From assembly GCA_021432635.1 (NCBI GenBank), contig MU270108.1:124983-188982 (forward strand): DNA of 64,000 nt. Reading direction: 5' to 3'. The position numbers and the translations under genes were made by a program. Source of the DNA: Thozetella sp. PMI_491. Lineage: Eukaryota; Ascomycota; Sordariomycetes; Chaetosphaeriales; Chaetosphaeriaceae. The notes below the pieces were generated by a model. That model was not told the DNA's origin, did no database searches, and saw only the letters and a list, made by a program, of their open reading frames with translations. Below are positions 26,114-54,368 of the stretch, one piece after another (the stretch's first letter is position 1; the number at the start of each line of letters is the position of its first letter).

Positions 26114-27254
26114 GCCGGCCTATAGCTGGAACGCTTTGGATAGAAATATGGTACCATCGCCTCCAACCACTAGCATCTCAACCGACCTGGAGGGTAAAAA
26201 CAGCGGCACCATTACCCCCGATCACTTTGTGCTAGCTGTTCCGAAGCCCTGCCGCTCGTCGTCCAGAACAGCCGCTCAGAGATCAGGCCGCTGAGAACAT
26301 GCTGGTGGAGTAGCCGTCATGAATGCTACCCCTGGTTGTCCTTGGGCATTTCACCCCTACACGAAATGGGACGCAGTCAGGGGCAGTACACATTTGAAAC
26401 TAGAGCTTTTAGGTCATTGAAACTCTCGAGGTAGGAAGGGTTGCGCCTCATGCTTGGAGAGCGTTAGTGTTGGCATGCGGCACGCTGGGCGCTACATTTA
26501 TTACTATGTATTACTACATGGCACACACGGGCTGTGCTCCGAGGTTCGTGTCGTCGGAGGACTTGTTGGGCGTTCAAAGAGGGGAAGCGACTAGAGATGA
26601 TCTGCTTGGGTTTTGTATTTGCATGCTCGTCCGTGGCAGCACGCTACGGGCAAGAACGGGAGGAACAGAAGAGTCTAAGGGGTGAAGCAGCGACCACGGC
26701 TCGATTGTAACGATAGACAATGATGTTTAGACGGGGATGGGACTACATAGAGATACAAAGAAGGAATAGGGTGTAGAGGACAACCAATAGAAGGCACAAT
26801 TGCACACATGTCGTGCTCGCGGAAGACTTTTAGGCCAAACTCCGGTTGAGATTACTTGTCATGACACATTTGATATCACAACTGGGAATGTCTTCGCACG
26901 GTCCCCAGCTCCCAGCAGAGCTAGGCTTTCCGGACAAACAACTGGCGATTCACAAACTGGTTCTATGCCTCCAAGAGGTGCTCACGTAGGCAGGTAGATG
27001 ACGTGGCGGCGTGTACGTCACGACCTCGTCGATGTGCAAGAAATATACAGGCTCACAGTTTGTGCGCAAGTAACCTCTCTATGCTAGCTACTGTACAGTT
27101 GGCCCCAGTGAATGCCGAGAATCAGGGGCCATGTTCGCCTGCTAGGCTCTCTGGGAGGCCGTGTCCTCCTTACCTGGAGAAGCCCCTTTCCCCCACGCCT
27201 GTGCCTAGCTCGACGATGCCATCACTCTCTCACCCTTGCCGATGCGCCTCGCGC
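26114..27254. other. Intergenic between convergent LST7-like and RPT3
   Basis: 1.14 kb between two stop codons. Only short overlapping ORFs are present. I see no RNA gene or repeat. Confidence 0.5.
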
Positions 27255-28664
27255 TTATTTGTAGAAATCGAACTTATTCTCGTCGCTCGTGCCCTTTACC
27301 TGGCTGCTATAGGCATCTTCCAGGTCCGACTGGATGATATTGTAGCGGTTCTTCCGCACTGCCCGCAAGCCAGCCTCTTGCATGATAGCGGCTATCACAG
27401 CACCGCTCAGGGGATCGTTACGCACGATCAAACTGTCTAGGTCGACCTCAGGGGCGAGGCTCATCTTACCGGCAATAGTGGTGAAGATCAGGCGGCGCTC
27501 GCGTCGGTCGCGCAGACTAGGAAACTCGATTTTCCGGTCAAGGCGGCCAGGACGGAGCAAGGCGGGATCGAGGGTGTCGGCTCGGTTCGTGGCCATGATG
27601 ACCTTGACGTTGGCGGTTTGGTCGAAGCCGTCCATCTGGTTTAGTAGCTCGAGCAGGATACGCTGCACCTCACGGTCTGCGCCGGTCTGGGCATCAAAAC
27701 GCTTCGTAGCGATGGCGTCGATCTCGTCAATGAAGATGATGGCCGGGGCGTTCTCGCGTGCCATGCGGAACACGTCACGCACCATGCGGGGGCCTTCGCC
27801 GAGATATTTTTGCACGAACTCCGAGCCCACGACGCGAATAAAGTTTGCCGTCGTCGAGTTGGCCACAGCCTTGACCAGCATGGTCTTGCCCGTCCCCGGG
27901 GGGCCGTAGAGCAGCACGCCGCGGGGAGGGTCGATGCCGATTTGCTTGTAGAGGTCGAAGTGCGTTAGGGGCAGCTCGACAGCCTCGCGTATCTCCTGCT
28001 TTTGCATGTCCAGACCGCCGACGTCGGCATAGGCAACGTCGGGCTTCTCGTCGGCGCCGAGCATGGCGATGGACGAGTCCGCCTCGGGCGGGAGGATGTC
28101 GACGAGGGCGTTGGAGTGGCGATGGAGCGCGACTGAGGACGACGGCTTCAAGAGCTCTCGGTCGAGGGTGGAGAGGATCCGGACGACATAGTTGCTTCCT
28201 GTGCTCGATTGGACTATCCCAGTGCTAGATGGCGGTTAGCTTGGCAAGCGGCAGGGACGCGGGCGCCTGCGCGAGGCCGGCTTACTTCTGATCAATCGCC
28301 TCCATGAACTGGCCGATGACCAGGGGTACGCTTTGGATCCGTTTGATCTCCTCTTGGGCGCGGACGAGTTCACGCTTCAAGCTTCTGTCGTGGGAAGGTT
28401 GGTTAGCTAGGGGCTCTGGCCTGATGGGACGGTGCCCGGCGCCGGGGTGGATGGACTGGAAGGCTACCTCTGCTCGTCCTTGATGTACTCCTCCTGAAGC
28501 TGGATGTACTCTAGTTGCCTCTGGAGCTTCTTCAGCCCAGCATAGTCATCGCCGCCATCCGTGCTTGCACCCTCAAAGTTGTCGATGCTGGGGATGGTTG
28601 ACGGGGCCGACTTCTTGAGCAGCGAGACGTGGTTTGGGTGGTTCTCGACGAGGACGTCGCCCAT
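27255..28664 (-). CDS. RPT3: 26S proteasome regulatory ATPase RPT3 (subunit 6B)
   Basis: AAA+ ATPase of the 19S base that unfolds and translocates substrates into the 20S core. Exons 28468-28664, 28286-28384 and 27255-28224; introns 83 and 61 nt; 421 aa, the usual Rpt3 length. Start taken at ATG 28664 ([12 protein letters not shown]). An upstream in-frame ATG at 28727 would add 21 residues and is less likely. N-terminal coiled coil ([22 protein letters not shown]), then the OB region ([26 protein letters not shown]), Walker A GPPGTGKT (206-213), Walker B IIFIDEID (261-268), sensor [17 protein letters not shown] with arginine fingers, and a C-terminal HbYX motif (F-Y-K) that docks into the core particle. 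The junction [13 protein letters not shown] agrees with the family. No missing catalytic residue. Confidence 0.97.
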
Positions 28665-30096
28665 TTTGTTGGCTGTCGTCTGTTGTCCGCGGGAGCTTCG
28701 GGGGTTCGGTGCGGTTGGCTCAGGCAATCAATCGATCGCAGCGTCCGGACTAGGGTGGGAGGATGGTTATGGCGGTGAAAGGAAAGGGGTGTGGTGAGCG
28801 GTCGCCGGTGTTGCGGACGGAGGTCTGCGGTTTGGTAGAGGGTTTGGTTTGACGGGTTCAGGATGGAAGTTCTGCTCGCTTCTTTGGCTTCAAGGCGCGT
28901 GCAGCCGGGCCTGGCAGTCGTCGTACCCAGCTGCAGCCTTTGGGGGTTTCTTACAATTTGATTGGCCAACAAAGCCTCCCTTGGACAAGGCGAAATGGCC
29001 CGTGTCGGCAGTGGGATGCTACAGAGAATGGGTCCGAGCCGAAGCGGTGAACTGCGGGTGCTCGAGGGTATCTTTGTAGCAGCCCACAGACCCGGCTGAG
29101 GACTCAAGAGTCCGTCCGGGAACCCTCGGACAGGGGTCATTTCCCAACAGCTACTCTGCTCCATATGGGTTCTCCGCCGTCAGTCTCACTGGGCCCCGGT
29201 CCTCCTGCAGGGAAGTAATGCGGGAGCAATGTGATTGAAACTCCCCTTGGGGGCTTTCTCTCTCTGTTCCACTTTGGACACCTGAGAGCGAGAGCGAGAG
29301 CTCCAGTAAGTAAGGTACATACCTGCACTTACCTTGGGTATGTATGTGCCCGACTGGGCAAGGTACTGTATGTATTTCGTAGGTATTAGCTGCTTCTGTG
29401 TGCAGGGAAATGAGAAAGGCCCGAGGCACGGCCAGCCGTCTGCCTCCCCAAGGCTCTTGCCGTCCCTGATGCACTGAACACGACCATCCAATCTTATTGG
29501 CTCAGTGTGACATGCGATCCCGGCCGGCCGTGGGCCCCAGCCAGTGAGCAGCTGCACAGGCTTCTGGGATTGCCAGCCAGAACAGCGAGCGAGCACTGTC
29601 TTGCCTGTCTTTCCTGCGCCCACCTGCACTGTGCGAGCCTGTCCCGTCAGAGCAGTGCTGCCTCTGAACACCTCCACTCTGCTTGCCTCCCCTCCCCCAA
29701 CAAGGCACCAGCCCAGTGGCCGGCACTGTACCACTGACTGTACCTCTTAGCTCCCAGTCATACATACCTCATGTCACCAAGCTCCAACTTCCACCTCCTG
29801 ACTCTCGCCTTCCCTCTCTCTCCGACTGACCTCGTACAAAACTCCAGCCTGCCCGCTGCACTTGAAGCCTTCTGACTCCCCCGTCCCTTCGCCCTTGCGT
29901 CTCGGGTCTTTCTGCCTCTTTCGTCTCCCTCTCCACTGTCATCTCTTATCTCTTGGTCTAGATTCATGCTGTTCTCTGCCCTGTCAGCCCTGCAACTGAG
30001 CACTGCAGCAACATTTGGCTACCCCGATATCTGCCGATTGCCTTGTCCGCGATAGAGAGTCACAGTCGCTCAACCGTCCGCACAGAGATCGACACC
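28665..30096. promoter_or_regulatory. Divergent promoter region between RPT3 and a small conserved gene
   Basis: About 1.4 kb between opposite start codons. The right part (29,780-29,980) is strongly CT-rich on the plus strand, as in fungal leaders. I did not find a clear proteasome-associated control element (GGTGGCAAA) close to RPT3. Confidence 0.5.
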
Positions 30097-30746
30097 ATGT
30101 CTTCTTCGATCGCCATTCCCACCACTCCGGCCACTAATATGGAGATCGACCATCGCTGCCGCCATCAGACCGCCAAGGTCGCCGCGAGCTCATCGCCGTC
30201 GTCGTACTCCGGCTCGCCGAGTCCGAACACCCCCGAAACGGCCTCCAAGCCCACCCCCGGCTCGCGGTCGGCCCAGAAGCAAAAGATGCTGCACCAGCGA
30301 CGGCCAAGCCTCCTGAGTAAGTTGCCCTCTTTACCACGGTCTGCGTGGTCGGCCGTCGTTGCCGCCCTTTCCTGCCGTGGCGTGGTGGTGGAAACCCTGC
30401 TAATATGAGGCTACCTAGGCTCCGCGATCTCTAAGCAAGAGTCGACCACCATCAACATTTCTGACGACCCAGATGGTCCGCCGCGGCTTGTAAGTTGCCC
30501 TCGTCGGGGGCACTCCATCCCTTTCACGCAACCTTCTCTCATCGTCGTGGCCCCCCGTCCCAGAAGAGGCTAACCATGACGCCTCAGATTTCATACCTGT
30601 CCTCGAGCCAAGGTTTCGCCTGGAACCCGGAGATCTTCCTTCCTTCCTCGGTGGACTACGATTACGTGCCCTTGGAGAACCGCCACGAGCCGGTCCACGA
30701 GATCCTGCTGAGCGACGAGGAGATTAAGAAGATGCTTCCACAATGA
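30097..30746 (+). CDS. Small conserved fungal protein of unknown function
   Basis: 149 aa from exons 30097-30316, 30419-30489 and 30588-30746 (introns 102 and 98 nt; donors GTAAGT, acceptors CCTAG and CTCAG, with a CTAAC branch in intron 2). The N-terminal half is low-complexity Ser/Thr/Pro. The C-terminal half is compact: QKMLHQRRPSLLSSAISKQ, then STTINISDDPDGPPRLISYL, then GFAWNPEIFLPSSVDYDYVP, ending LSDEEIKKMLPQ. This order of short motifs gives me an impression of a conserved family in filamentous ascomycetes, but I cannot name it. No membrane segment or signal peptide. The two short internal exons both encode the motif-rich part, which argues that the gene model is real. Promoter shared with RPT3. 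Confidence 0.65.
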
Positions 30747-31999
30747 ACGATACCACACCACGCTTTCCTGTCCCCTGTCGATACCCTTATTTCACGAAGT
30801 ACACACACACACACACAAACGGCGCACTAGAACTGTTATTCTCACGAGAATCTGGTCTCACTTCTCACACACGGCGTTTTGGCACAACCCTCCGAATCCC
30901 CTCCCCCGCCTCCCTTCTCTCTCTTTATCTTGTCATTTGCTCCCGGCGAGGAAAGGGTTCTGGCCCAATATGGTCAATCGGTTTTGGACTTGGTTTGCTA
31001 CACCCAAGGGCGGCGTGGGTTGCCTGTGGTGGGTTGCGGCCTCGCCATGGGCTAGTCCTCATGGTTGTGGCACATATGCCGAGCGTCGGCTGACCCGGCG
31101 GTCCTGGGGAGTTCTGGTATCCTGTTGGAGCCCTCTGTTATTACTTACTAGTCTTGGATCCCGGCGTTGTTCTTGCTTCTCCCAGGCGACCAGGGAACGG
31201 GTAAGGGAAGTTCACAGGTCGTGGGACACATTGGCTGCCCCTCGTCCCTTCTGAGTCGTCCTCCTGCCCCCCTCTGTCAATCCCGCGCTTCTCAACACTG
31301 TACAATGAGACTTTGTCGTAGGGCTCTTGCCAATTCAAACACTCTCCGATTACGATGCCACGACCGGCGCGCAGATCTGATGCGTGACTACCTAATGGAG
31401 GACAAGGGAGGTCGGGTACCCATGCCCTCGAACTCCGCTCGGGACTGACTGACTGGCCCGCTTAGCATGCATGCCCGCCCCGTAGCGTCTCGCATCCGTC
31501 GCTGCAAGCAGATATGCACAGGGCCCGCAGCGGTGGCTGGTAATGCCCACGAGTGCTCTCCCACGTGTCTTATAGCACCAACTCCAGTTCATCCAGCGAA
31601 GCTTGCCTCATACAAACGTGGGTTGTGTGAGCGCGTTAGGATGAAACAGCCTGAGCCGGCGGCCTGTCTGGCGTCTGCTTAGACACGGATTCCTGGCTGG
31701 GAACGGCACAGACACACTGACAAGCGGGCCAGGGACTGACCCCGCCCCAAGACGACTGTGCCCCTCCATAGGCGATAACAAGCTGGGGGCTTTAGTGCCG
31801 CTGGCCGATAAGGCCAAGACCCACCCGATAACGAAGCCCCGGGGAAATAGACCCGGCAAATCACGCCTGGTTCGATGTAAACATGAACTTGGCGTAAATC
31901 CCCCCACACCATCGCGCATATCGAGGGGAAAAGAGGGAGAGCGAGGCCATCGCCCCAGCACCGAGGACAATAGTCCGGAGATACGTTCATTCGGGCACC
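30747..31999. other. Intergenic: 3' flank and MIS14 promoter
   Basis: 1.25 kb. A short (CA)n microsatellite lies at about 30801-30817. No gene seen. Confidence 0.5.
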
Positions 32000-32747
32000 A
32001 TGGAATCTGCTGCAGGGGTCGCTCACCGCAAAATCGAGCTCCAAGACCCCGAGGACTTGACGTTTCTGATCAACAATGTGCGGCGTGCCGCCGCCGACAG
32101 CATCAACGCGGCGTTCCCGCCCGTCGAAGGAGCCGAAGGCGAGGTGGACGAATTGCGCGTGCGGATAGAGGAGCTCGTGAACGAAGTATACCTTCCCCAA
32201 CGCGCTCCCCTGCCCCCTTTTTAGACTCGGCTGACTCTGCTCCTCTTAGTACATCGCCCGTACCTTCACCCTTGCGGCCCCCAACCTCGCCATCAACGGA
32301 ATGCCGGTCGACCCGGCGCCGTTCCTCAGCGGCGATGTGGAAGCTATGACCCCGGAAGAACACTTCGAAGCATTCGACGGACGGAAGCGGCAACGCGTCG
32401 AGGAGCTCGCCCGCGAGGAGGAGGACTTGCTGCGCGAGATCGCAGCTCTGAAGCGGCGCGTCCCCAAGAACACAGCTGACGCCTACGCCGAGAGCACCCG
32501 CGCCGGCGTGGCCGCCGATGCCGAGGCCGCCGACGTAGCCCGCGATCGCGTACGGGACGCCGCTTCTCAGCGAGCCATGCTGGGGAAGGATGGGCGGCAA
32601 GTCGGTCTGCCACGACAGGCGGAGGTGGAACGTGCGTTCGCGGACGCCGTTGCCACGTTGGAGAGGCTGAAAAGAGACATGCCGGCGACGGTAGCCAAAA
32701 TGGAGAGGGCCAGGGTTGCGGGCGAGTATGTCGTCACGGAGCGGTGA
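32000..32747 (+). CDS. MIS14: Kinetochore MIS12-complex subunit Mis14/Nsl1
   Basis: Subunit of the MIND/MIS12 complex that links centromeric chromatin to the Ndc80 complex. Exons 32000-32185 and 32250-32747, intron 64 nt, 227 aa. The N-terminal block KIELQDPEDLTFLINNVRRA and the junction-spanning EELVNEYIARTFTLAAPNLAING are the Mis14 signatures. After that comes a long heptad-type coiled coil (KRQRVEELAREEEDLLREIAALKRR, then RQAEVERAFADAVATLERLKRDM). Length fits fungal Mis14 (about 200-240 aa). ATG 32000 is followed by a normal start. Nuclear, at kinetochores. No odd features other than high alanine content. Confidence 0.85.
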
Positions 32748-33435
32748 GCCTTTGTGGGGGTGGGGGATTCCATATGGCAAAGAATACACGGGACAGGCGA
32801 CATTAGCCTGGGTAACTCTAAGGTCCAGTCAAGCTCGACGCTCAGGACAATGGCATGTTATAGGGGCGTGAGAACTTGGAGTTGGGCGCAAGGTATGCTC
32901 TTCTTGATACCAATACTGGACAAACTCGGGGAGTTTGCAAAGGCAACGGGAACAGGCGAATATATAAGGAGAGTGAAAAGGCGAAGTCCCCGGTCCCAAT
33001 GGTCTCTTTCTCTATATGCTTTAAGGATTACTAGGTGAACGCGATGTGGCCAAGATACCCCGATGCAATCTAAGCCCCCCTCTTCGCGGCACAGGGACTT
33101 GGAGCGGGAGCAACAGGCAAAGCGCATTGATCAATAGGCCCCGAGAAACTCGAGTTACATCCATCCTCCAGTGTATCTCATGTCTCCGGTTGTCGTTTAA
33201 CCCGGCTCCTAATCCAAAGCTCCTCTCTTTGATGTATGATGGGAATGACTACAGCATCATTGTCTCTTCCCTGCCACCTCCTCATATCTTGTTTTTTTTT
33301 TTCTTTATTTCCCCTTCCCCACTTCTCTTCTCTCTACCGACCCGAGCCGCTTCCCCGAGCCATTGTGTCTGCCACGGACCTGCTGTTCCCATATTGCGTC
33401 GTCCGGGTAGCGCCAATGGTGTGGAGAGGTCCGTC
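32748..33435. other. Intergenic between convergent MIS14 and SEC14
   Basis: 688 bp between stops. Contains a T-rich stretch (about 33291-33302) on the plus strand. No gene seen. Confidence 0.5.
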
Positions 33436-34720
33436 TTATGCCGCAGCAGGAGCCGGCGCTCCGGCAGCCTGCTCCTCCACGGCGACGGGTGCGGCACCCT
33501 CGGCGGCAGCGTCGCCCTCCTTGACCTCGCCCGGAGTGTTCTGAATTGCCGTTGACTCTTGCTCCCACTTGGCGGGACGAGCCCACTCCTTCTCGCGCCA
33601 TGGCCCGGCATCGCTCATGGAGCAACCGCCCTCGCATTCACAAGTGCCGCCAAACTGCTTGGGCAGATTCTCGGCAGGCACCTGCGCGAGCAGCTCCTTC
33701 TGGTAGTTGCTACCGAGCACATGGATCTTCTGGACGGTGACGGGGTCAAGCCACCCCTTGACGACGCTCCAGACGCCTGAAAACCCCCAGGGCGCGTTGA
33801 TCAGGTACAGACGGCCCAGGCGTTCCGGGTAGTAGTTCTGGCTCAAAACACTGGCCTGGCGGACGTAGCTGTAGACCTGGGGCGCCTTGGTGATGCCCAC
33901 GCCCTTGAGGTCCATGATGCTGCAGCACGTCTCGAGGAGGAAACCGCTCTTTCGGCTGCAGGCCGGCAGACGGGGGTCGGCCACGCGTTCGTACTCGACC
34001 GCCAAGTTCATGAGCATGCGCTCTGCCGTCGTAATCTTGTACATGGCAGTCAGGTCGATCCCGCCCAGCTGCTCGACGTAGACCGGCCGGCCGTCCTGGA
34101 AGCGGAAAGGGCAACGTCAGCAAGGTACCAAGTGAGAAAGGGCACTGATGGGCCGATGGTCGAGGGTGCATGCGAGAGCCACCCACCTTGTCAGTCTTGT
34201 GGTAGTACTGCGGGTAGTATTTCTGCACCTCCTCCTTCTCCTTGTAGTCCCAGATCGGCACGGTCTCGTCAAGGTTCGTCTCTTTTCGCCATTTCTCGCA
34301 CTCGACGAACCTAAAGGAGGGGGGGTAGGGCCGTCAGCGAGGCGGTCCTGCGGAGGGGAGGGGGCCGGGGCGGCAGGAAGGAGGTAGGATATCTCACATG
34401 GCCTTGGAGAGGTTGACATCGAACTTTCGGGCGCGCAGGAAGCGGAGCTAGGGCCAGCGGACGGTCAGTAAGCTGTGACGGTCTTTGAGGGACATCGGAC
34501 GGGACGCAAGGGCCCAAAGTGCGGGAGCATAGCCAGGGGAACGCACCAGAGTGAGGGTGTCGAGCCGCTTTGTGTAGCCCTCGGCCTCCAGCATCAGGCG
34601 CAGCTGGTGCACCTGGGCCTGCTGCTCGTCGGTCAAATGACCCGGGTGGCCATTCTGGGCGACGGGCGCCGTGGTTGGGAAATCGTAGTCGTCATACTTG
34701 GGATCTAGCTTCATAGACAT
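33436..34720 (-). CDS. SEC14: SEC14 phosphatidylinositol/phosphatidylcholine transfer protein
   Basis: Cytosolic CRAL-TRIO protein that exchanges PI and PC and supports Golgi secretion. Exons 34547-34720, 34398-34447 (50 nt), 34187-34310, 33436-34095; introns 99, 87 and 91 nt; 335 aa. [26 protein letters not shown] then [17 protein letters not shown] then [10 protein letters not shown]. Lipid domain: [84 protein letters not shown], all close to yeast Sec14. After the domain there is a roughly 50-residue Ala/Glu/Pro-rich tail absent from the 304-residue yeast protein. Start ATG 34720. Introns fall in the usual filamentous-fungus positions. Confident. Confidence 0.95.
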
Positions 34721-35974
34721 GGCGGGGACTGTCGGGTCTTGTTGTGCTCGGAAAGGAGGAAAGGGGGAAAGGGAAAAGGGGGAGGGCGGGCCGGCTTGAA
34801 GGCGAGAGGTATCTGTCGGTGACGCTCTTTTGCAAACGCACACACTTGGGAGAGGGGCACAGGGGTTAAGGGATGCAGCAAAGGCAGGCCGTCGACAAGC
34901 AGCGGTGCGGTGGTGAGGGAGAAGGGGAAGGTGGCTCTAGCTCTAGGAGATAAAAATTCCCTGGCGAGTAAACAGATGGTCAAGAATGTCGCAGCTTGCT
35001 CGCAGTAAAGCCAGTAGGGTTTGGATTAGGTTCGGGGGAGAGAGGGCAACGACGACAGTGCAGTGGTAGGTAGGTAGTTAGTAATAATGGTAGTAAAGTT
35101 TAGGTAGCTGGACCCTCTTCCCCCCCTGGCTCTTTCTAGGGACGCTGGGTTAAATTGAGACCCAAGAACCAAGCCCCCCCCTCACCTCCCCGCCACATCC
35201 CCCCAACGGAAGAAAGTCCTACAACAAGCTACTGTACACCACAGGACCAAAAATTCGTCATAGCGAGGGGACGCCGACATGTGAGTGGAGGGCTTTTGTA
35301 AGAGATCATCCTCTCCGACTACCATAGCCTGAACCCCACATGGCACATGGGGTCGTCTCCCCCCCCCTTTTGTCTTAACAGCAACTAACAGCAATCAGCA
35401 GCAGCGAGACCCCTGGAGCCAGGAAGCCTTACCACGGCTATGCGCAGCGCCGTCCGTCCTGTGCAGGTGCAGCGGCCGGCGCTGGAGTGTGCATGAACCA
35501 TCTCCCACAGCATCTCACACACCAACAGTATACATACACGCTACGCCCATCGAACCGTCTCATTTGCTCTCCGTCAGCTTGTATCTTGTTGCTCATAGGG
35601 GAGCAGGGGGGTTCAAGAGCTTATGTAGAGGTGTCAGCAGAGGTGAGGAAACAGCCCGAGATTAAGGAGGCTTCAGCTGGAAAGCCCAACAACAGCTGCA
35701 GAGCAGCCCTGCCAGCCTCCCTCCCTTCCCCCTTTCAGTTCCAAAAACGGAAGCAGGGGAGCAGAGAGGATGAAACTATGGTTGGAAACCCGGAGGCGTG
35801 ATTCAAGTGCATCGAACGTCGTGTCTATTCGAACCTGGTGGACTTTGGTGTACACGCACCAGCCGGAGCCATGCATATCGAAGATCCCGGAGACACCTTT
35901 GGCCAGCAAGTGGCGGGCATGGCGGAAATCGCTCCCTGGTCCGCCGTAGACCCTCGCGGTGCTTGTCCAACCCA
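34721..35974. promoter_or_regulatory. SEC14 promoter and prefoldin-3 3' flank
   Basis: 1.25 kb between two minus-strand genes. Read on the minus strand the part next to SEC14 is CT-rich (about 34,740-34,800). A C-rich run is near 35,358. No gene recognised. Confidence 0.5.
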
Positions 35975-37031
35975 CTAGCCGTTCGGGGTCCCATCGTCTT
36001 TGCCTCTGGGCTTGTTCTTCTCCTCCTCCTCCTCCTTCTCCTTGCGTTTCTGGACCACATCCCAGTTGTATACCCTAGCAATCGCGACCTCCATGGTCTG
36101 TTCTCCGGTTAGCTCAAGGCACTCGCTCGCGCACGCGACCGCCTCAGTCGCTAGCTCGCCAACGCACCGTAATCTGCTCTCTGAGGAAGTCGAGGTCTTC
36201 TTCACAGTTGGACATGCTCTGCTTTGCCGCTTTATATTTGGAGTCCAGCAGAGTCTCGGCCTCGTCTACCGGGTACGCCAGCATGACGTTGGCCTGCCTC
36301 GACGTCAGCACGTAGTCGCCAAAGACCTGCAGGGATTATGTTGTTGGAGAAACCATACACCCAGCCATATGTAGACCTCTTCTGTAGGTGGTATCTCGGC
36401 TTTAGCGTAGAGCGTCTCGTTGAGCTCGAAGGTGGTCTCTATCGAATCGGGCTCGTCCTGTCCCGGCTAGTTAGCGATCGCCCTCTCCTCCTTGTCCATG
36501 CGATGTTGGGCTTGCTGCCCCTCGTGCCCATCGGTCGCACCTTTCTGAGCTTGAGGAATCGGACGGTGTCGAGTGTCTTCTGGATATCAGGAAGCTTGTC
36601 CTTCAAGCCTGCCATACGGCGCTGCAGGTTCTGTTCCATGAACTGGTACTTTCTGCGAGGAAGCACCGGAGTCAGCAGTGAACAAACGCTCGTGCATTTG
36701 CGTTTCCTCCCCCCTTCCATCGCCTAGACTAGATCTGACCCAAAAGAAATTCGCCAGGAGGAGAAAGCAAACTCACGCGATCATCTCCTGGAAGCTCCGC
36801 AGTGTCGGCTCGACCTCGGCGCGCGACGACACATAGTCCTCTACCTTGTCGACGAACGGCGCATACGGTATCCCGCGGGGGTTAGAGTCGGTATTAGCAT
36901 CCCTATCGTGGAGCATGCCAAGGGCATCAGCAACGGGTGACAGCAGCGGAGAGAGTCTTGGGCCTGCGTGGTAGCAAGAGGCTCCCCACCGGTACTTACC
37001 CTGGAACGGGATTCTTGCCTTTGCTCGCCAT
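35975..37031 (-). CDS. PAC10: Prefoldin subunit 3 (Pac10/VBP1)
   Basis: Alpha-type subunit of prefoldin, the hexameric chaperone that hands nascent actin and tubulin to CCT. Six exons in 1.06 kb: 37000-37031, 36777-36902, 36541-36652, 36359-36457, 36168-36293, 35975-36097; introns 97, 124, 83, 65 and 70 nt; 205 aa. The spliced product starts MASKGKNPVPG, then NPRGIPYAPFVDKVEDYV, KYQFMEQNLQRR, KLPDIQKTLDTVRFLK, TTFELNETLYAKAEI, and WLGANVMLAYPVDEAESLL. The WLGANVML motif, shared with human VBP1, forms exactly across intron 4 and fixes that junction. Both ends are coiled coil, as expected for an alpha prefoldin. The tail is a charged Lys/Glu run (KRKEKEEEEEKNK). Start ATG 37031. Confidence 0.9.
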
Positions 37032-37937
37032 GGCAAAAAATGCTATAGGGTATGCCCAGAGCAGAGCTGCCCTGGCCGGCTCTCTTGGTGGGTGCGGGCA
37101 AGTGTGTCCGGCTGCGCGGCCGAGTTGAGTGAAGGGATAGTAGCCGCGGGGGGCTGCAAGAACAGCATGTGCACACCTGTGGATTGGTTTGGTGCAAATC
37201 GGCGAAAAGCAAGCTACACCACTTGGCGCCCGTGGTGGGGCTCTCACCTCGGTGAGCCACACTTCCCTATCACTGTTTTCATCCCGCCCCCAAAGCATCC
37301 TCTATTTTGCAATGCCCGGCTGCTTGTTAGCGTTGGGCAGGACAGCTTCGCGCTCTTCGTGTATCGAGAAAGACGCAGCACCTTCAAGCCGGAACGACTA
37401 GAGCTGTTATGGGCTATGGACCTGGCATCAGATATCCTAGGCTCCAACGAGCCAGCGATCTACAGGGTAGGCAGGAATACGGCTCACATTGACCGGGAAG
37501 AGAGACGGAATAGGGGGGGGATTGGGAAAGTCTAGTACCAACCCATGCTATGTCATTCGTCACGCAAGCCGGTATCTATGCACATCTACTGGCCCCCAAA
37601 TATGAATAGCAAACGCCAAGTCTACCATGCATTTGAGAGTCGTAGTCCATATATATCATCCAAGAGTTTCAAACACTTGAGCAGTGCATTAATTGCAGAA
37701 GGGAAGAAATAAAGGCCTCTCGCCCGTCGCCCAGCCGTTATGTGACAAATTGCAGATTGGTATCATGTTCATCGCCGCTTTCGCCTCTCATCGTCCGTAA
37801 ATGCAGTTTCTTGGGATCCTGAGCTCTCTTGTGTTCGCAATTTTGGATACATCGCTCCCTCTCATAAAATCCTCAGCGTTGATTAGATAGGATGATGATA
37901 ATAGCATAAAAAATAGCCGGGAGGAAAACATGTCAAA
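37032..37937. other. Intergenic downstream of frq and upstream of prefoldin 3
   Basis: 906 bp. In Neurospora the antisense RNA qrf starts downstream of frq, so an antisense promoter could lie here. I see only isolated GATC sites (about 37467 and 37815) and no tight pair. No protein gene. Confidence 0.4.
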
Positions 37938-40829
37938 TCACCGGGCGGCTTCCTCCATGGACGAGGTATATCCGCTCTCAGCCCCGCCGGCCGTGGCTGC
38001 TGAGCTTCCAGTCTCGACAATGGCCCCAGTGCTTCCACTTACGACACGGTGCGGCACGCCAGGTCGCTGCTGTCCTCGGTGCAAGGGGATGTTTCCGGGT
38101 GGAGCCGGGTATCTCCCGTCGTCTTCGTCAACCTCGTCTTCCTCGTCGTTGGAGGAAAGCTCCTCGTCGTCTGGATACGTGTTGTCCGATTGATGCGGGT
38201 TGGCACGCTGTGAGATCAGTGCCTGAGACACAGACGTCTCCCCTGACGGGTCGTCCATGTCCGAAGCCAATCCGTCGCCTGGACTGCCGGAGCTCGAGTC
38301 GGTGCTGAAAGGAGGGAAGAACAAGGCTGGGGGCGGGAGTGGAACAGGCCTGAACCGCTTGAGCCGGCCTGAGAGATACTCGATCTCGACGCACATCTCG
38401 GCAAACGCCCGAGGTGGCACGGGCGACGAGGTGCTCATCGAGGCGAGCCGTCCGGCAATCGCGTCGGTGGTGTCCTCGGATCTCACTCGGAATCTGCGGG
38501 CCTTGGTGCCGAGGATGGTTCTCCGGGTCGTAACCACCACGGCGAAGTGGTCCTCCGGGAGCACTCCGCCCAAGCCGCAGGGTTCTAGAGGTGGGCTGAT
38601 CGGCTGCACCACCACCGCCTCGGGTTCATCGCACCAAGGAAACTCGATATCGTCCACATCCTCGTCTTCATCCTCATCGTCTGTCGTGAGGCTCGGTGTC
38701 TTCTCCTCCCGCTCCCTCATCACTGCATCGACCAAGGCACGGTCGTCACTCAGGGGTCGAATGGCCAGCGACGAACCAGACAAAGTCCGTGAGAACGGGG
38801 CAGGCGTGGGGTTGGGAAGCGGGTCGGATTCCTGACCGTTAGAGGTTAGGTATGTTGTAGGAGACACCTCCCCGTCCCCGGGGTCCCGGGACAAGTCGGT
38901 GCAGAAATGAGCGCCGCTGTAGTAAATGATGGCCCCGTCCCGGCGCCGCTTCCTCCGCTGCGAAGAACCAGATCCACTATAGCCCCATTTTGAGTTGCCC
39001 GTGTTGTCCATGTTGCTCTCCTCGATCCACGACGCCTGAGACCCGGTCTCCTCCAACGAGGCCTCGACCGACGACGACTGGCGAGCGAATATGGGCTTGT
39101 AGTGGAAGCTCCCAGAGGAGCCAGACGCTTGCGGCCCGAACTTGGACTCCCCGCTCGGCGGGGCTAACACGCGCTTCTGCTTCTTTCTCTGCCCGTCCTC
39201 GTTGGATCCGTCCGTATCCTCCGTTGACGGGCTCTTTTGCGAGTTGTCGCCCGAACTGTCCGAGCTGAATTTGGTGCCATCCGAGCCGCCTCGCCATCGA
39301 ATCTTGCGGCCGTCGGGTGACAGCTGGAATTTTGCGCTCTTCTCTGTCACGGCCGACCGGATGAAGCCCGGCGTCACATTGATCATGTGGAGCTGAGCCA
39401 GGTTGCAGAGCAGATTGAGGTATACCCAACCGTCCGCGTCAGGAGATACGTTGTGATAGCTGACTCTCCGGTCCACCAGGAACTCAGGTGGGACGAGCCC
39501 GAGGTGGCGGATGTAGTCCATGTTCTCGGATGGGATCTGGATCCGATCTGGGTCGAGATCCCGCGGCCGTGTCGGCCGTTGCTCGGGAGGCGGGGCCGTG
39601 GGCGGAGACCCATTGTTCCTACTGCGGCCCCCACTCCCGCTACCGCTACCATCACCAGTCTGATTCCCGCCCGACTCAGTCTGGTCGCCATTGGAGTTCG
39701 ACGCTGACAAATTGTCTCGTGAGGGCCGCTTCTTCTCGGAGCGGTCCGGGGGCTGGATTATCGCCTCCCGGGAAGCCCCCGATTCTAGTGCCAGTGCCGG
39801 CAGCACCGGGTCTGCAGCTGCCGGAGTCTCGATGTCGGGCATCGATTGATTACGATGTATGTTCCGCCCGCTAATCTTGCCGGTGAAGAGCTGCTCCAGC
39901 CGACGCACCACGAGCTTCTTTCTCTCTTTATCCGTCATGACCGTGTGCCGCGGGAAGAGCCCGTCGGGGGTGTCGGCGATCAGGTTCTCGAGCTTATGGT
40001 CGCCCGATGACTTTGTGCGAGCGATCGACGAGGGCCGGCCGAGCGAGGTGGGCGCGTTGGAGCTGGGGCCAGTCGACATGGACGCATACGCGGAATCGAC
40101 CGGCCGAGAGTGCGATGACGACGACGAGGCGTGTTTCGACATGGATTCCCCAGAATAGTAGCCGACCTTTCCGGGACGGCCCTGCTTGCGGCGCTGCGAG
40201 GTGGCCTCGCTCGAGCCCTCCAGACTGGCGGCAAAGTCGCGAAGGGTGGCTTCCAGTTCCCGCTTCTTGCGCTTGGGCAAGCCGTGGACTTTGATTTCAA
40301 ACAGCTTGTCCTTCTTCATGGCATCGGGCCCCAGTTGCCGATATCTCTTGAGCTCCTCCTTGAGCCGTTTGTTCTCTATTGTGAGGTCGTCGATGACGCT
40401 CCGGTAGTCGTCGGCACTGCTACTATGGGTCACGGCAGGACGGAGAAGGCCCTGGCGCGCGCTCTGGACAAAGGGGTAAGGAGCGGGCCTTGTCTCCTCG
40501 TTGGATGAATCCGTTTCCTTCTGGAAGAATGGCGGATCAACATCCATGGACCCGGCATCATAGCTGGCGTTGGGGTTGAGGTTGGATCTGTCGAACCATT
40601 TCTTGGCATCGCTGTGGGCCGTCTCATGGCTCTCACCGGACGAATTCCTCCTCGGGGAGCTGGTAGGCGCCTGGGCTGAAGCGGCCTGGGCAGCTACCCT
40701 GGTCACGTCCCGGGCGAGGCGGTGATGCCGCAGAGTCACAGACTTATCCGACGTGGTCCTGCGGGGGAGAGGATGGCCTCGGTCTGGTGGGGGCTGTGTG
40801 CCCTGGGACTGCGAATTGTTACCCGGCAT
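37938..40829 (-). CDS. frq: FREQUENCY circadian clock protein
   Basis: Central negative element of the fungal circadian oscillator. FRQ with FRH and casein kinase 1 inhibits the White Collar Complex that drives frq. 963 aa, uninterrupted coding exon. Blocks that match Neurospora [25 protein letters not shown] (residues 26-41), [15 protein letters not shown] (98-112), the coiled coil [24 protein letters not shown] (140-163), the NLS-like [20 protein letters not shown] (184-203), the CK1-docking block [21 protein letters not shown] (298-318, FCD1 type), [19 protein letters not shown] and [19 protein letters not shown] (FCD2 type), a basic [13 protein letters not shown], the FRH-binding type [22 protein letters not shown], and the C-terminal [16 protein letters not shown]. 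Ser/Thr/Pro- and acid-rich linkers are typical phosphorylation regions. Start ATG 40829. Codon 95 (40547) is a second, conserved ATG for a short form. Neurospora FRQ is 989 aa. Confidence 0.98.
40545..40547 (-). promoter_or_regulatory. frq: Internal start codon for a short FRQ form (AUG-S equivalent)
   Basis: Methionine 95 lies directly before [17 protein letters not shown]. In Neurospora the short FRQ form starts at codon 100, at a Met in the same position before [17 protein letters not shown]. The context here is tcc-ATG-G, with a weak -3 base (T). Known: the ratio of long to short FRQ in Neurospora depends on temperature. Inference: the same choice exists here. Confidence 0.7.
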
Positions 40830-40840
40830 CTCTCCAACAT
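40736..40840 (-). promoter_or_regulatory. Upstream ORF overlapping the frq long-form start
   Basis: ATG at 40840, 11 nt before the frq ATG and in another frame ([11 protein letters not shown]...), runs 34 codons to TGA at 40736-40738, thus passing over the long-form start. The uATG has G at -3. The next frq-frame initiation site after its stop is the codon-95 ATG, 189 nt downstream. If translated, it should reduce long FRQ and allow re-initiation at the short form. Neurospora frq is known to have several upstream ORFs. Confidence 0.6.
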
Positions 40841-40873
40841 GGCACGATCTGCGCTCGTCGGCGGATGGGTTTA

Positions 40874-40906
40874 CTACGCCAGGCAGGGCACGCGGCGACA
40901 GGGCAT
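40874..40906 (-). promoter_or_regulatory. Short upstream ORF in the frq leader
   Basis: ATG 40906, ten codons ([10 protein letters not shown]), stop TAG. It lies 45 nt before the frq start, in the predicted second leader exon. Purine at -3. Confidence 0.5.
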
Positions 40907-40960
40907 CTCGCCCCGGTTGGAGGTGGTTAACGATGGTCGGCGGTCACGCCTCCGCGACGG

Positions 40961-41259
40961 CTACCGATGTGACGTTAGTTGCGACGTGGCAATGTCGAGC
41001 TTAGAGGTATGGTCAGCAAGACCGTAACGCTGTGGGCAACGAATGGTAGCACGCAAGACCGTGCCGGAGGGGGGGGCGGTGATCGGAGCGAGGGCACGCC
41101 CGGGACCGAACGACCGGGAGGGAGCACGACGATGGCCGCTGACGTTTGCGCCAGGGCAGCAGAATCTGTTGGCTGCCCCAAGCTCGAGGGCCGAGAAGTT
41201 GGGGGTTCGGGGGGCGAGTAGGAAAAAAAAAATAGACAAGATCGACCGAAACTACTTAC
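40961..41259 (-). other. Candidate intron in the frq 5' leader
   Basis: On the minus strand a perfect donor GTAAGT at 41259-41254 is followed by a perfect ACTAAC branch site at 40979-40974 and a TAG acceptor at 40961, 299 nt in all. Neurospora frq has leader introns with alternative splicing. The CAG at codon 7 of FRQ (40809-40811) could act as an alternative acceptor that would remove the long-form start; that part is speculation. Confidence 0.5.
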
Positions 41260-41816
41260 TATAGGAGTGAAAGGAGGGGCAAGGGACCAGGGTCAAGTGG
41301 TCTGTAGCGGTGCAGAGTGCTGAGGGAGGCGTCAAAACAGTTGATGGTGGAGGGGAGTACCGGTTGGACCTGGAAATCCGCCAGCACGTCAGCTTTAATT
41401 TTTGGGTGTAGGCCACTTGTGTCGGAGATTCGTTCGTGCCGTGGTGATGGGTGTGCGAGGCGAGGACGTGTAGCCCGATCGTGGCCGTGGTTTAGTGGAT
41501 GGTTGACTGCAACCCAGACGCAGTTTGTTTTCTTTTTGGTGGTCGTTGAGCAGGTCGAAGACGAGAGAGGCTTAGGAGGGGGGGAGGGGGGGGGAGCGGC
41601 ACAAATGGAGAAGAGAAGAGGAAGTTTCAATCAAGACGTGGGGTCTACAGGCCGTCGTAGAAGCAAGGCCAGGAGGGCCTGAAGCAATCGAGATCCAGCA
41701 ATCCAGCCAAAGACCAGGCCAGCCGTGCTGGCTACCCTCGTCTCGTCAGTCCGGGACGCCTGTTGCCCGCGCCCCCCGTCGGCTTCGTTAGTTTTCAGAT
41801 GCAACATGATTTCACC

Positions 41817-41893
41817 GATCTCTGCGGCAGTGGGTCACTTTTTGGGATCGAGGGGATCGAAAGTTCAGGGTCCTCTGCTAGGACCTGCCGATC
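41817..41893 (-). promoter_or_regulatory. Candidate proximal light/clock element of frq (GATC cluster)
   Basis: Four GATC sites in 77 bp (41817, 41846, 41855, 41890). On the minus strand the middle pair reads TCGATCCCCTCGATCCC (41844-41860), two direct copies of CGATCC. White Collar Complex elements at Neurospora frq are described as imperfect direct repeats with GATN-type half-sites. Located about 1.0 kb upstream of the frq ATG, near where a transcription start would be expected if the leader is about 1 kb. Confidence 0.55.
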
Positions 41894-43470
41894 ATTGGCC
41901 GAAGCGGACGAGGTCGCTGGCCAACTTAGGGTACCCTTCCCACGAGTTTGTTTATTCTACAAGGGACCCTCGCTGCGCACCGCCCTAAGTGTCGTAGGCT
42001 TCTTGACCTTCCCAAGCTTGCTAGTCGACATACCCGGACGTCAAGGACCTTCCAGCGAGCTCCAGGAGCGCCAGATCCCATCGCACGGCGAGCCACAGGT
42101 CAGAATTGCGACGACCTAGCCCTCCATCGCTCAGCAAGCCTAGGTGTACTTTGTTAACGAGGAACCCGACGCTTATATTCTGAGCTAACGCCATGGGGCT
42201 GATTTAGCTCGAACCCAGGAAATATGGGGGAGCGTTGGCAGGTGAGACCGGGGGGAGGGTGCAAGCGTCGGTCAGTTTCCAAGGGACACGCGCCATCGAC
42301 CACATCGCCAGATGAGAAAGAAGCACCTGATACTAGCTGATGCGTCCGACGAGATAGACATCATCACAAATGGAACTTTTTAAACCCCCTCAGCAAATGG
42401 CACCTTCATCATGACTTACCCAAAAAAAATCATCAGATCGACTAAGCTTTCCCAGAATGCATCGAATCACCAGAGCATCAACACAGATGCATGCAGCGGG
42501 AAAAGGTGTGATTGTTTTGTTGCGCCGGGGAAGGGGTGAAGCTAATGGTCACGACTGGATCCATGCAATTCCTACGTCATAACCCGTAAGACCCCATGTT
42601 CTAGCCCTACACCACCCGAGAGGGTCCCCTTAGAGTTACACCAACGCCCGACGAGCAGGTGGACATTGGGATCTTACTCGTTGCAGGTCATCGGCCCTCC
42701 TCCACTGTTCCGCCAAAGGCCCAATTCCATGCATGCTATGGAGGAGCGGGCGTGGGCACGAATTGCCGGTTCTGTCTGACGGCGCTGCAGTTGATATTCG
42801 ACCGGCTTCCATGAGACTCCTTTGGGGTCCCAAAACTTGGAAACGGGCGGGCTTTTCTGCAGCCATCGAGAGCAAATGGCCAATTGGCTCCAGCAAAAGG
42901 TGAGCTGCAGCAGGGGATGGGCCCACCGCCCTGAGCGCCTCCTTCCACAGCATGACAGCAAGTGGCATGTTCTGCCAGTTCTGTCAGTTCTGCCAAGATG
43001 CAAGCCGCACTCCAGCGACGTAGAGCAGCAGCACAGAAGCGCAGACAGACGCAAAAAGGGACCGGCCCACGCACCCTTCGTCCTTTGGTTGCAAGGAACG
43101 CGGGAAATTTGGATGTTGGGGGAAGCTTCTTGACTCAACCTCTCCCTGGGGCTCGGGGCCGGGGTGTGGTGTGCCTGCTTGTTTCGCGTGCTACCGAATT
43201 GGCCAAAAGAGCCGATCCCGCGAAGGGAGCTCGATCTTCAAGTCAGGCCCGGCAGTGGCTGTATTGGATGTAGCCCCAGTCAAGGAGGAGAAGGGAGGTG
43301 CTGTAATTCCGCTGGGAACCCCACACGCAACCACACACGAGCGGAGTCAATCAACCGGAGCGGAGACGAGGAGAAAAGGGGACTTGGGAGCGTGTTCGAT
43401 CCCGAAAACCCCAGTTTAAGTGGAGGTCAGCGATGACGTCCTGCGATGCTGAGGTGATAGAGCCGCCGCC

Positions 43471-43520
43471 GATCTCTGGACCCCTAAAACTCGATCGAGA
43501 TCACCACCACCAACAGGATC
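43471..43520 (-). promoter_or_regulatory. Candidate distal C-box of frq (GATC cluster)
   Basis: Four GATC sites in 50 bp (43471, 43493, 43499, 43517), including the pair GATCTCGATC on the minus strand. Three more lie within 260 bp on the far side (43214, 43233, 43398). About 2.65 kb upstream of the frq ATG, a distance that would suit the Neurospora distal element (Clock box). It is also only about 0.85 kb upstream of the divergent DUF155 gene. Confidence 0.5.
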
Positions 43521-44336
43521 TAAGTATTTCCTAACGGAGCGGGCAGCGCCGCGTTCGTCGAGTTTTCAAAGTTGCTCAGGCAATTGAAAGAGAGAAAAAA
43601 AGAAAAAGAAAGAAAGAAAGAAAGGAAGGGGCGGGGGGAGCTTGCTTCGCGGTGGCCTCGACAGTGACGGCGGATTCGGAGCAGCTGAATCAAGCGGCGG
43701 CGGCCGACCCTATGCCCTCAACTTCGGCCCGGAAAGGGAGGGTCGCCGCCGCTTCCGTTCGCCGGGACTCAAGAGTGTCTGTTTCCCGGGCCTGTGGGGC
43801 GACTCTCGGTCGCCCATGACGGCGTATATCGGAGCGGAACTACAGTACAAAACCCTGACAAGCCTCGCGCACCATGAAGCGGTCTCGGCACCACCAGCAA
43901 GAAACTTCAGTCTATTTGGTGGGATGATGCAAGTAACTGTACCGACATCCGCTAGGGAGGACAGATTTAGGCGGCAAAACGACGCGCTGAGGAGGGACAG
44001 GCGGTTCGTAACCAAGCAGCCAAGTGACACTGTAGGTACAGATGAGTCGAAAATAACAGCTACTGAGATACCTGATGGACTAGTTAGTGTAGGGACCTAG
44101 CTCCACAGTTCACTCTGTACCTAAAGTTAGCTTCTGCTGCCAGTGCGGCATGGTGCCTTAGCTTACCTAAGGCAAGGCAGTAAACTGGTCGATAAGATAA
44201 GGCCACTTGACGAGGCTGCAGAGACTGGAGTGGGCAAGAGAGAGCTCCATTCAGCTTCCCTCGAGCCATGGAGCTTGCATCAGGCCGAAGCCAAGCAGGA
44301 TACCTAGGGGACGCGTAGAGAACAACCAAGAATTAA

Positions 44337-45776
44337 ATGGCCACTGGCGCCTTCTCCTGCCGTCGCAAACCATTCCGAGCCATGAACCCCTCGCTTGCGA
44401 GACTGGCGCCGGGCGTCTGCTGCCTCGGCTCCAGTTCTCTCGCCCCCTTCGCAGCGTCCCGGACGCTCGCTCGCCCATCTGCTCGAAACTTCCACCGCAC
44501 CGCGCCCGCCTGCCTACCCCGACGGCGCAATTTCTTTACCTCCAACGTGCTTCTGCAGCAGGACGGCAGCGAACCGCACCAGTTCTCCCGAGACCAAGCG
44601 ACACGCAGCGCACACGAGCCCAGGTCTGCGAGCCGCCTCAGCGATCCGACTTCAAAACCCACCTCGACCAAGCGGCGTAAAGGCCCGCTCAAGAACTCAT
44701 TACACCGCGTAGCTATCGTCGCCCAGAAGGGTGTGCCGCCCAAGCCTTCCCACGCACCTCTGGCCCCCGAGGCCGTCGAGTCGGATGGCGGCTCGTCCAT
44801 CAGCGCCGTGTGCGTCGCCGAGTCCTTCGACATGGAGGTCGTGGCCGACCTCTTGCAGAACCACGGCTTCCTGCTCGACCCCGACGGCACGGGCTTTGAG
44901 ATACACGAGGTAGTTCACGCCAAGGGCTTCAATGCCGGTGATATATTCGTTTTCCCCTCCGGGACCATCGTGACTTGGTCGCTACCACCCGACGTGGTAA
45001 ACACCTTGGCAACGCGCCATCTCCTGCCCGCTGCCGAGGGCCCTTTTGTTGAGTCCAAGGAGGTCGAGGATCTTGAATACGTGGTTGATCACTCCCAAGA
45101 CCAGAGCTCAGTCTCTGGGGATGTGGTCAGGCTGGGGACGCTGCGGGAGACCCGGGACGGCGACCGGCTCGACACGACACTGGCCAAGATCGCCTTCTCG
45201 TCTGGCCTCGCCCGCAGCACCAAGCTTGCCGTGCTTGAAAGCTCGCTGACGCGCTACCTCGAGAGCACAAGACATATCCCGGACCAGCTCTCGCAGGGTC
45301 TGCGGTTTCCGCTTTCGCGGGAGCTCATCCTCCAGAAGACGGGCGAGCTGCTCAACCTGCGGTCGCAGCTAAACCACTACAATGACCTAACCGACTCGCT
45401 ACCTGACCTGTTCTGGGACAGCGAGGTGAAGCTGGAGACGTATTACGACAAGATCGGCAAGGCACTCGACGTTGGTATCCGCATCAAGACGCTCAACGAC
45501 AAGATGACGTATGCTCAAGAAGTCGTCAACATGGCTCACGAAGTGCTCAACACCACCGAGAAGATGGCGAGTGAGAACCACAGCACCCGCCTTGAATGGA
45601 TCATTATCATCTTGATCGCTGTCGAGGTCTGCTTTGAGCTCCGGAGGGTTTACATGGAGTACAGGGACGACCGCCACGGAGAGCAGGCAGACGCACTGCT
45701 GGCCGAGTTCCGGCAGCTGAGAGAGTCTCTTGAACGGCAAGGCCGGGAAGGAACCGGCCGGGAGGCCACTAGATAG
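44337..45776 (+). CDS. MRX10: Mitochondrial DUF155 protein (RMND1/Mrx10-like)
   Basis: 479 aa, no intron. Human RMND1 and yeast Mrx10 are inner-membrane proteins that support mitochondrial translation. The N-terminus is Arg/Ala/Ser-rich for about 65 residues with almost no acidic residue (RTLARPSARNFHRTAPACLPRRRNFFTS), a presequence. The DUF155 domain: AVCVAESFDMEVVADLLQNHGFLLD, VHAKGFNAGDIFVFPSGTIVTW, DRLDTTLAKIAFSSGLARSTKLAVLE, YLESTRHIPDQLSQG, LRSQLNHYNDLTDSLPDLFWD. The C-terminus has a coiled stretch and the diagnostic membrane anchor RLEWIIIILIAVEVCFEL (residues about 419-436). ATG 44337 is chosen as the most upstream start; ATG at codon 16 (44382) is equally good for a presequence. Divergent from frq, so it could share clock elements, which is inference. 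Confidence 0.87.
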   Translation: MATGAFSCRRKPFRAMNPSLARLAPGVCCLGSSSLAPFAASRTLARPSARNFHRTAPACLPRRRNFFTSNVLLQQDGSEPHQFSRDQATRSAHEPRSASRLSDPTSKPTSTKRRKGPLKNSLHRVAIVAQKGVPPKPSHAPLAPEAVESDGGSSISAVCVAESFDMEVVADLLQNHGFLLDPDGTGFEIHEVVHAKGFNAGDIFVFPSGTIVTWSLPPDVVNTLATRHLLPAAEGPFVESKEVEDLEYVVDHSQDQSSVSGDVVRLGTLRETRDGDRLDTTLAKIAFSSGLARSTKLAVLESSLTRYLESTRHIPDQLSQGLRFPLSRELILQKTGELLNLRSQLNHYNDLTDSLPDLFWDSEVKLETYYDKIGKALDVGIRIKTLNDKMTYAQEVVNMAHEVLNTTEKMASENHSTRLEWIIIILIAVEVCFELRRVYMEYRDDRHGEQADALLAEFRQLRESLERQGREGTGREATR

Positions 45777-50989: not shown

Positions 50990-52340
<1,351 letters not shown>

Positions 52341-54368
52341 CCTGGCGACGATAACGAATTCTGGGGAAAGGGTTGGGTGATAAAAGAAAAATCGAAGGAA
52401 ATGGAAGGAAAAGAAGGCAGTTATTCAATCGCCGACAATAATGTGATTGATGTTTGTGGTTTCGGATGATGGTTGGTCGATTGGGGGGCGGGAGGCGACA
52501 ACAAGGAAAGAGGAGAGAGAAGGAGGAAGGGAAGGGCCGTGTTGTGACGAGTTGGAGTGGGAGGAGGAGCTCCAGGTGGCGGGCGGGCAGGCTGACGAAT
52601 GACGCACTCGCAAGGTACCTCTGTGAGCATGTGCCCCTTGCCAGTTGAGGCGTGACCCTCAGACTGGAGCCCCCCGGAGCTAGCTCCCCTGCTGCTCCGT
52701 GCGTGCCTAGGTACGTAGCCTGCCTTGGTACATGCGTCGGCGCGGGCAAGTCGGGGGCGGGCAATTGAGGGGAGGGGCCAGGCTGGTTGGCAAGCAAAGC
52801 AAGGCGGGTAGGGATTAGAGCACTGCCCGCCAGCCGCGGCGCTGTACCTGCAGGTCGCTAGGCGCCCAACGAGCCACTGAGCACCTGGCAACGGAACCTC
52901 CGGGGCAGCCCGTGCTGGCTGGCAAGCTGGCAAGCTGCGTTGCATGGGAACCAGACTGATTGATTCTCCCTGGCAACAGGGGCGGCTCCTCCGTCCTCTG
53001 CGGTCATTGCCACCTTACGCACCTCCATATATTCTGTACATGTCCGGATAGGTTGTTGGTCTACCCACTTCCAGCCAAGCGACGTAAGCTCAGACAATAT
53101 CCTGTTGCGGTATTCGTGGCCCAGTGCGACGCCTTTTCAACCAAGACTCGCCAAGTCACCCACATAGTGCTGCCCTGCCCGCGTACCAACAACATTCAAG
53201 GCAGCTAGCTACAGGGATACCTACTAGAGGTGAGACACTCGACCAGTGCAGCACTGCTGGTGTTGCCTATGAAGAGAGGCCAAGAGGGCCCTGAGAGCGC
53301 TAGAGGCGACCGGGTACATATGAGCGAAGCTACCCCATACCTCCACACAGCGAGCGCCGTGTGCCGTTCGCTGCTGGATCGATCCATCTACTCGATTGGC
53401 TTAAAAGCACGCCCAGATCAGGCCTGGGTCCTGGTGCGGTGAGCTGCTCGAGAGCAAACCGCTCCAGATTCGGCGGCTACGGTCGCCCCTTGCGCTCGCT
53501 AGACGGCATCGGACTAGGCTCTCCGGCCAAGCAGATGAGCAACATATAGCGGTGAAAAGGGCTGCGTTAGTACTGCACAGGCAGGCACAACAACATCGTT
53601 CGCCCTTCGTCCTGCTATAGAAAAGTTGCAACTTGTTGATGAATATATTACATTCTCCGATAATAAGCTATCCACGCGCGCCAATAACAAATAGTGCGGT
53701 GCCAGGCCGTGCGGGAGCCCCAATATATCTATACCCTACAGCGTCCGGTTGTTTCTACGCCCATGCCCAACATCCCTCGGATTGGAGGAGATGCGCTCCG
53801 TAGCCCGATCACATACATACTCGATCAAACCTTTCCGCATTTTCCACTTCTACTGCTACTTCTACTGCGGTTCGTGTGTTCTGTGTATGCGTAATGGCGG
53901 CACACTGTTGAGGTCAAATCGCTGCTCTGGTAGGGATGCATTCGCAAGAACATGACTGTTTCCTGCACCAAGCCCCGACTTCGCAACGCGGGGTTCGAAA
54001 TGGGCCGGCCTGTGCCCCGCACCTCTCTTGTCCCCATGCGACGAGCTCCGATCAAACTTAGAGCTCCCGCCAGTAGCGAGTCTGCATCCCTAGCGTGCTG
54101 GTGGAATTGGCGGGAGAAGGTCAGGAAAAAAAAAGAGGGAAAGAGAAAAAAAAAATCTTTTCGGGGTCCCATATGAGTCCTCTCCCCTCGAGTCTCGCAG
54201 CTTAGGGTGAGACAAAAACCCTCTAGCCTCCCTCACACCCCCCTTTTCCCTTCTCTTCTCTTCACCCGCTACACACACACACACCCACACACCCACAACC
54301 CACAAGAACGCTCCCCAAGAGATACTTGCTAGGCTCCTCTGTCTCTCTCTTCCTCTCTCGTGGTCATC
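52341..54368. promoter_or_regulatory. Divergent promoter region of PEP4 and SHMT
   Basis: 2.0 kb. CT-rich plus-strand leader next to SHMT (54,240-54,360) with an (AC)n microsatellite at about 54272-54292; an A-rich tract at 54125-54155. Next to PEP4, purine-rich on the plus strand (52,500-52,540). No gene seen. Confidence 0.55.

Follow-up and report, generated by a model that had tools for sequence, protein, structure and literature searches.

A stretch of Thozetella sp. PMI_491 DNA (contig MU270108.1, positions 124,983 to 188,982; 64,000 nucleotides, all of which are hereafter called the window and numbered from its first letter) contains, at 37938-40829 of the minus strand, a gene that is very probably the ortholog of the circadian clock gene frq and would encode the negative element of the feedback loop between FRQ and the white-collar complex (WCC), with the corresponding biochemical role. 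According to the open reading frame (ORF) call, the Pfam match and alignment, the coding sequence for the long protein form (l-FRQ) consists of one exon of 963 codons that runs from ATG to stop without interruption, as the first-pass annotation of the window had described it. The Pfam FRQ profile (PF09421) matched residues 16-959 of the ORF over profile positions 6-983 of 983, with a score of 1221.6 bits (cut-off 26.6), and no better-matching non-clock family was found in the Pfam scan of the ORF at E values up to 0.01. FRQ is largely disordered, and a sequence comparison with solved structures gave no match for it at E up to 1. Across the genome assembly (72,315,471 bases in 157 contigs), this was the only locus at which FRQ matches were reported. 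A search for FRQ relatives matched 600 pattern stretches in viral contigs and 592 in bacterial and archaeal genome contigs, none of which was confirmed. The locus is an ordinary, well-preserved frq, one more member of a known family that has been described from Sordariomycetes, Dothideomycetes, Leotiomycetes and one Pezizomycete (PMC4592989).

The reference for alignment was a hand-entered copy of the N. crassa FRQ sequence. Its length of 989 residues equals the published length (PMC10140173), and it fits the published positions of Met-100 (PMC10140173), L165 and L169 (PMC4592989), FCD1 at 319-326 and FCD2 at 488-495 (PMC6761100), and KKK315, the FFD at 774-782 and RR783-784 (PMC11045787). Alignment to N. 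crassa FRQ had been proposed as a check by the first-pass annotation; homology extended over the full length, and 585 of 946 aligned positions (61.8%) were identical to this copy, Thozetella FRQ being 26 residues shorter (963 versus 989). This degree of identity suggests that the frq belongs to a filamentous ascomycete of the Sordariomycetes. Functional blocks were conserved, and the linkers between them were divergent. This pattern, together with the uninterrupted 963 codons, the full-length profile match and the report of a sole FRQ copy in the genome, makes it exceedingly improbable that the gene is a frq remnant, decayed or truncated, retained by chance.

The named FRQ blocks that the first-pass annotation had listed were all recovered in the alignment, all on the minus strand. 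The coiled-coil core, defined as in PMC4592989, spans residues 146-163 (40341-40394) and keeps the equivalents of both key leucines, Leu-165 and Leu-169. The first and second docking blocks for the kinase CK1a, defined as in PMC6761100, are FCD1 (VVRRLEQL, residues 307-314, 39888-39911) and FCD2 (LLCNLAQL, residues 473-480, 39390-39413), each identical at eight of eight positions to residues 319-326 and 488-495, respectively, of the N. crassa reference. The charge block ahead of FCD1 reads RKK here and KKK in N. crassa. The predicted FRH-binding motif (FFD; definition from PMC11045787) is DHFAVVVTT followed by RR (residues 760-770, 38520-38552); compared with N. crassa DHFVMLVTT, six of nine residues are identical, the three changes are to Ala or Val, and the RR is kept. 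The equivalent of Ser-513 and the C-terminal block are also retained. Within what is taken to be the extent of the nuclear localization signal in N. crassa FRQ, the sequence is PKRKKR here (residues 185-190, 40260-40277) and PRRKKR in N. crassa. The likeness to N. crassa frq includes two conserved starts in the uninterrupted frame: Met-95 aligned with N. crassa Met-100 and may serve as the start of a candidate short form, s-FRQ (37938-40547, minus strand).

Special codon usage of frq was considered and rejected. The GC content at third codon positions (GC3) was 0.73 in frq, near that of wc-1 (0.68) and frh (0.70), although lower than the 0.82 found in each of two frames beyond frq, one PEP4-like and one named serine hydroxymethyltransferase (SHMT) by eye.

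Partner genes were sought in the same genome. Genes for WC-1, WC-2 and FRH, whose absence the first-pass annotation had said would speak against a clock, were all present. WC-1 is encoded by a single frame of 1,111 residues that combines a LOV domain with a GATA finger and additional PAS matches, and its LOV domain was 80% identical to the reference N. crassa LOV. WC-2 was recognized as a PAS exon adjoining a GATA exon; the genome held eight GATA matches, for which three regions were retrieved and two of these were scanned with Pfam. Among solved structures, FRH scored highest with the FRQ-interacting RNA helicase, at 1690 bits; the highest-scoring DOB1 chain reached 1157 bits. A SKI2 helicase lies at a separate locus. 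A VVD-like LOV frame shared 51% identity with the LOV query for WC-1. Besides WC-1 and VVD, there were three more LOV/PAS-like matches, at L036 (1474-2694, minus strand), L037 (2563-4098, plus strand) and L016. L036 keeps the NCRFLQ motif, the cysteine of which is presumably the flavin cysteine; L037 has NSRFLQ, so that this cysteine is seemingly replaced. The VVD-like gene is adjoined by a frame that by its translation, judged by eye, is like a GH7 cellobiohydrolase (L028, 3457-4482, minus strand). For fwd-1, which the first-pass annotation had also proposed to look for, we found a candidate: an F-box/WD40 protein closest to beta-TrCP, a second scanned F-box/WD40 protein being closest to CDC4.

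Two loci encode CK1a-type kinases that were 96% and 97-98% identical to the reference fungal CK1a, and the others among the 41 listed matches reached at most 61%. The two genes lie at L042 2716-3696 (G000:C14) and L043 2241-3358 (G000:C42). Their products share 288 of 297 residues, but the genes differ at 158 of the 297 third codon positions, and an internal intron of one is absent from the other. Third positions that have diverged this far beside near-identical residues, together with the intron difference, suggest that the duplication is old and that purifying selection has been strong. N. crassa, we assume, has one CK1a-type gene, unlike the two found here. The second gene may matter for period, CK1a being the FRQ-bound kinase. 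A mixed assembly of two genomes was considered as well and rejected, since frq, wc-1, FRH and SKI2 (the latter two being the two DSHCT helicases) each occurred once.

Upstream of frq, an intergenic region of 3,507 bp (40830-44336) extends to a divergent gene that encodes a DUF155 (RMND1/Sif2-Sif3/Mrx10) protein by Pfam (44337-45776, plus strand). The region is gene-free, as the first-pass annotation had proposed for about 3.5 kb: it contained no ATG-initiated ORF of at least 120 residues and, besides the frq frame itself where it continues upstream, no stop-to-stop ORF of at least 200 residues, and neither a tRNA nor an Rfam match at gathering score was found in the whole 64-kb window. Light-response elements (LREs) follow the pattern GATNC-CGATN, in which N is one and the same base in the two half-sites; in N. 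crassa, gaps of 3 and 11 nucleotides between the half-sites have been verified (PMC7493669). With gaps of up to 20 nucleotides, the window held 11 motifs of this form, 4 of which lie in the 3,507-bp region, 3 of these 4 on the frq sense strand. The motif scan placed a proximal-LRE-like motif (GATCC-3nt-CGATC; 41846-41858, minus strand) 1,017-1,029 bp and a distal-LRE/C-box-like motif (GATGC-10nt-CGATG; 42460-42479, minus strand) 1,631-1,650 bp upstream of the ATG. The gaps of 3 and 10 resemble the verified 3 and 11. Two further LRE-like motifs have gaps of 13 (43214-43236, plus strand) and 18 (43493-43520, minus strand). The proximal and distal motifs are about 600 bp apart, whereas in N. crassa about 1.2 kb separates the C-box from the start sites downstream of it (PMC10278383). 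The proximal motif overlaps an opposite-strand tandem, GATCGA-GGG-GATCGA; such a GATCGA pair within 24 nucleotides occurred once in 156,014 bases, at this motif, a count made after the motif had been seen.

When the region was shuffled 1000 times, the three motifs observed with a maximum gap of 14 exceeded the shuffle mean (0.30), and three were reached in only 3 of 1000 shuffles, this being one of four maximum gaps tried, with limits chosen after the fact. These data suggest a modest enrichment of LRE-like motifs, as candidate sites, upstream of frq. The first-pass annotation had seen the long upstream region as fitting a heavily regulated gene. That reading is weakly supported by motifs modestly above expectation.

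An 898-nucleotide run without ATG (40907-41804, minus strand), found by the ATG scan, sits directly below the proximal LRE-like motif and may form most of the 5′ leader. ATGs are absent from the frq sense strand between -978 and -77. Composition predicts 5.5 to 8.1 ATGs for an 898-nucleotide stretch; 11 occur on the opposite strand. The chance estimate is optimistic in that the run was selected for being the longest. No longer ATG-free run exists on the window's minus strand, and only one on either strand exceeds it. Comparable runs occur outside the leader as well: one of 846 nucleotides lies at 42968-43814 on the same strand as frq, and the longest in the window, 1,177 nucleotides at about 22909-24088 (plus strand), lies 5′ of a folliculin-family frame (24620-26113). 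After the 898-nucleotide run there are only two ATGs, at -77 (10 codons) and at -11 (overlapping the start). A transcript that began just downstream of the proximal motif would carry few upstream ATGs in its leader, namely those at -77 and -11 and possibly that at -978. N. crassa frq, in contrast, carries six upstream ORFs (uORFs) (PMC7746235). By consensus match, a candidate leader intron with a GTAAGT donor, a CTAAC branch and a TAG acceptor is located at 40961-41259 (-430 to -132, minus strand).

From the observed gene, conserved blocks, partner genes and motifs, a working loop can be projected by analogy with the known system. WC-1 and WC-2, as the white-collar complex, would bind the distal and proximal LRE-like elements and drive a frq transcript whose leader is about 1 kb long. 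The FRQ protein would dimerize via its coiled coil, bind FRH by the FFD/RR motif and CK1a by FCD1 and FCD2, and, after entering the nucleus, promote conversion of the WCC to a phosphorylated, inactive state. Phosphorylation driven by CK1a would finally retire FRQ through the F-box protein; with transcription start, binding and feedback as projected here, a rhythm may result.

The first-pass annotation had concluded that the lineage probably has a functional FRQ-based clock. The gene and its partner set make such a clock plausible, but the conclusion does not follow from them, as V. dahliae has the set with conserved domains, yet no rhythm was detected in it (PMC7493669). Presence of the clock gene set is not proof of a clock. 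A free-running clock in this fungus is, in our judgement, somewhat probable, and we hold the estimate at this level because short-gap motifs occur in Verticillium species in which no rhythm was seen.

It is also a real possibility, if short of probable, that the FRQ module is conserved here with no free-running oscillator and that FRQ serves light response, growth or metabolism. This is one option proposed for V. dahliae, and it is compatible with frq orthology. V. dahliae shares the gene set and FRQ domain set seen here and has LRE-like motifs, yet its authors detected neither a free-running rhythm, in frq or in conidiation, nor any light regulation of frq (PMC7493669). In Beauveria bassiana, which likewise has the FRQ family with FRH, two FRQs (964 and 583 residues), compared with the one matched locus here, are reported to orchestrate non-rhythmic conidiation (PMC7140403). 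On the other hand, Thozetella FRQ is nearer to N. crassa FRQ (61.8% identity) than is V. dahliae FRQ (43.82%), and the FFD is kept at six of nine positions plus RR, compared with 4 of 10 sites in V. dahliae (PMC7493669). LRE-like motifs were found in the frq promoter of every species analyzed in PMC7493669, so their presence alone is no mark of a clock. Their spacing differs: most species in that study have gaps of >70 bp and the clock-box core sequences of V. dahliae are about 80 bp apart, whereas the gaps of 3 and 10 in Thozetella resemble the verified N. crassa gaps.

Several observations weigh against a running clock of the N. crassa type or against parts of the evidence for it. Its components are present in V. 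dahliae, where no clock was detected, and short-gap motifs (at most 14 nucleotides) also occur in V. tricorpus, V. zaregamsianum and V. albo-atrum, of which V. tricorpus and V. albo-atrum showed no developmental rhythm in the reported observations (PMC7493669). Motif enrichment was modest at the other three maximum gaps: one motif was observed at gaps of up to 3 and up to 5, a number reached in 84 and 116 of 1000 shuffles, respectively, and two were observed at gaps of up to 11, reached in 28 of 1000. Elsewhere in the genome, in 92,014 bases from 14 other loci, largely around genes, 14 LRE-form motifs with gaps of up to 14 (two of them overlapping) were listed, a rate that predicts about 0.5 motifs for the 3,507-bp region. 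Unlike in N. crassa, a downstream element of LRE form (qLRE) for the light response of the antisense transcript qrf was not found, the motif scan of 27245-41845 giving no LRE-form motif. For intron I-6, whose alternative splicing yields l- and s-FRQ, a consensus search for a counterpart spanning the first ATG found no branch-plus-acceptor between the two starts. FWD-1 orthology remains that of a candidate, as only three regions were retrieved and two scanned for 52 F-box-like matches in the genome. Finally, the comparison sequences (N. crassa FRQ and LOV and the fungal CK1a) were hand-entered copies.

Beyond frq, 50990-56037 contains an aspartyl protease (Pfam Asp) and, by eye, an SHMT-like frame. 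We take the protease to be PEP4-like. In N. crassa, pep-4 and for are presumably also near frq, which would mean that gene order is conserved.

It is conceivable, if unlikely, that the nearly uORF-free frq leader removes the translational temperature input described for N. crassa and that the two old, strongly conserved CK1a-type genes split or raise the kinase dose by which the period is set, the result being a retuned clock. If so, Thozetella would have a frq clock with a differently tuned temperature response and period. Given that no rhythm was detected in V. dahliae, which has the genes as well, the combination of short-gap motifs, an ATG-poor leader and a second CK1a-type gene in Thozetella may be of comparative value as a natural test of which clock parts are needed.

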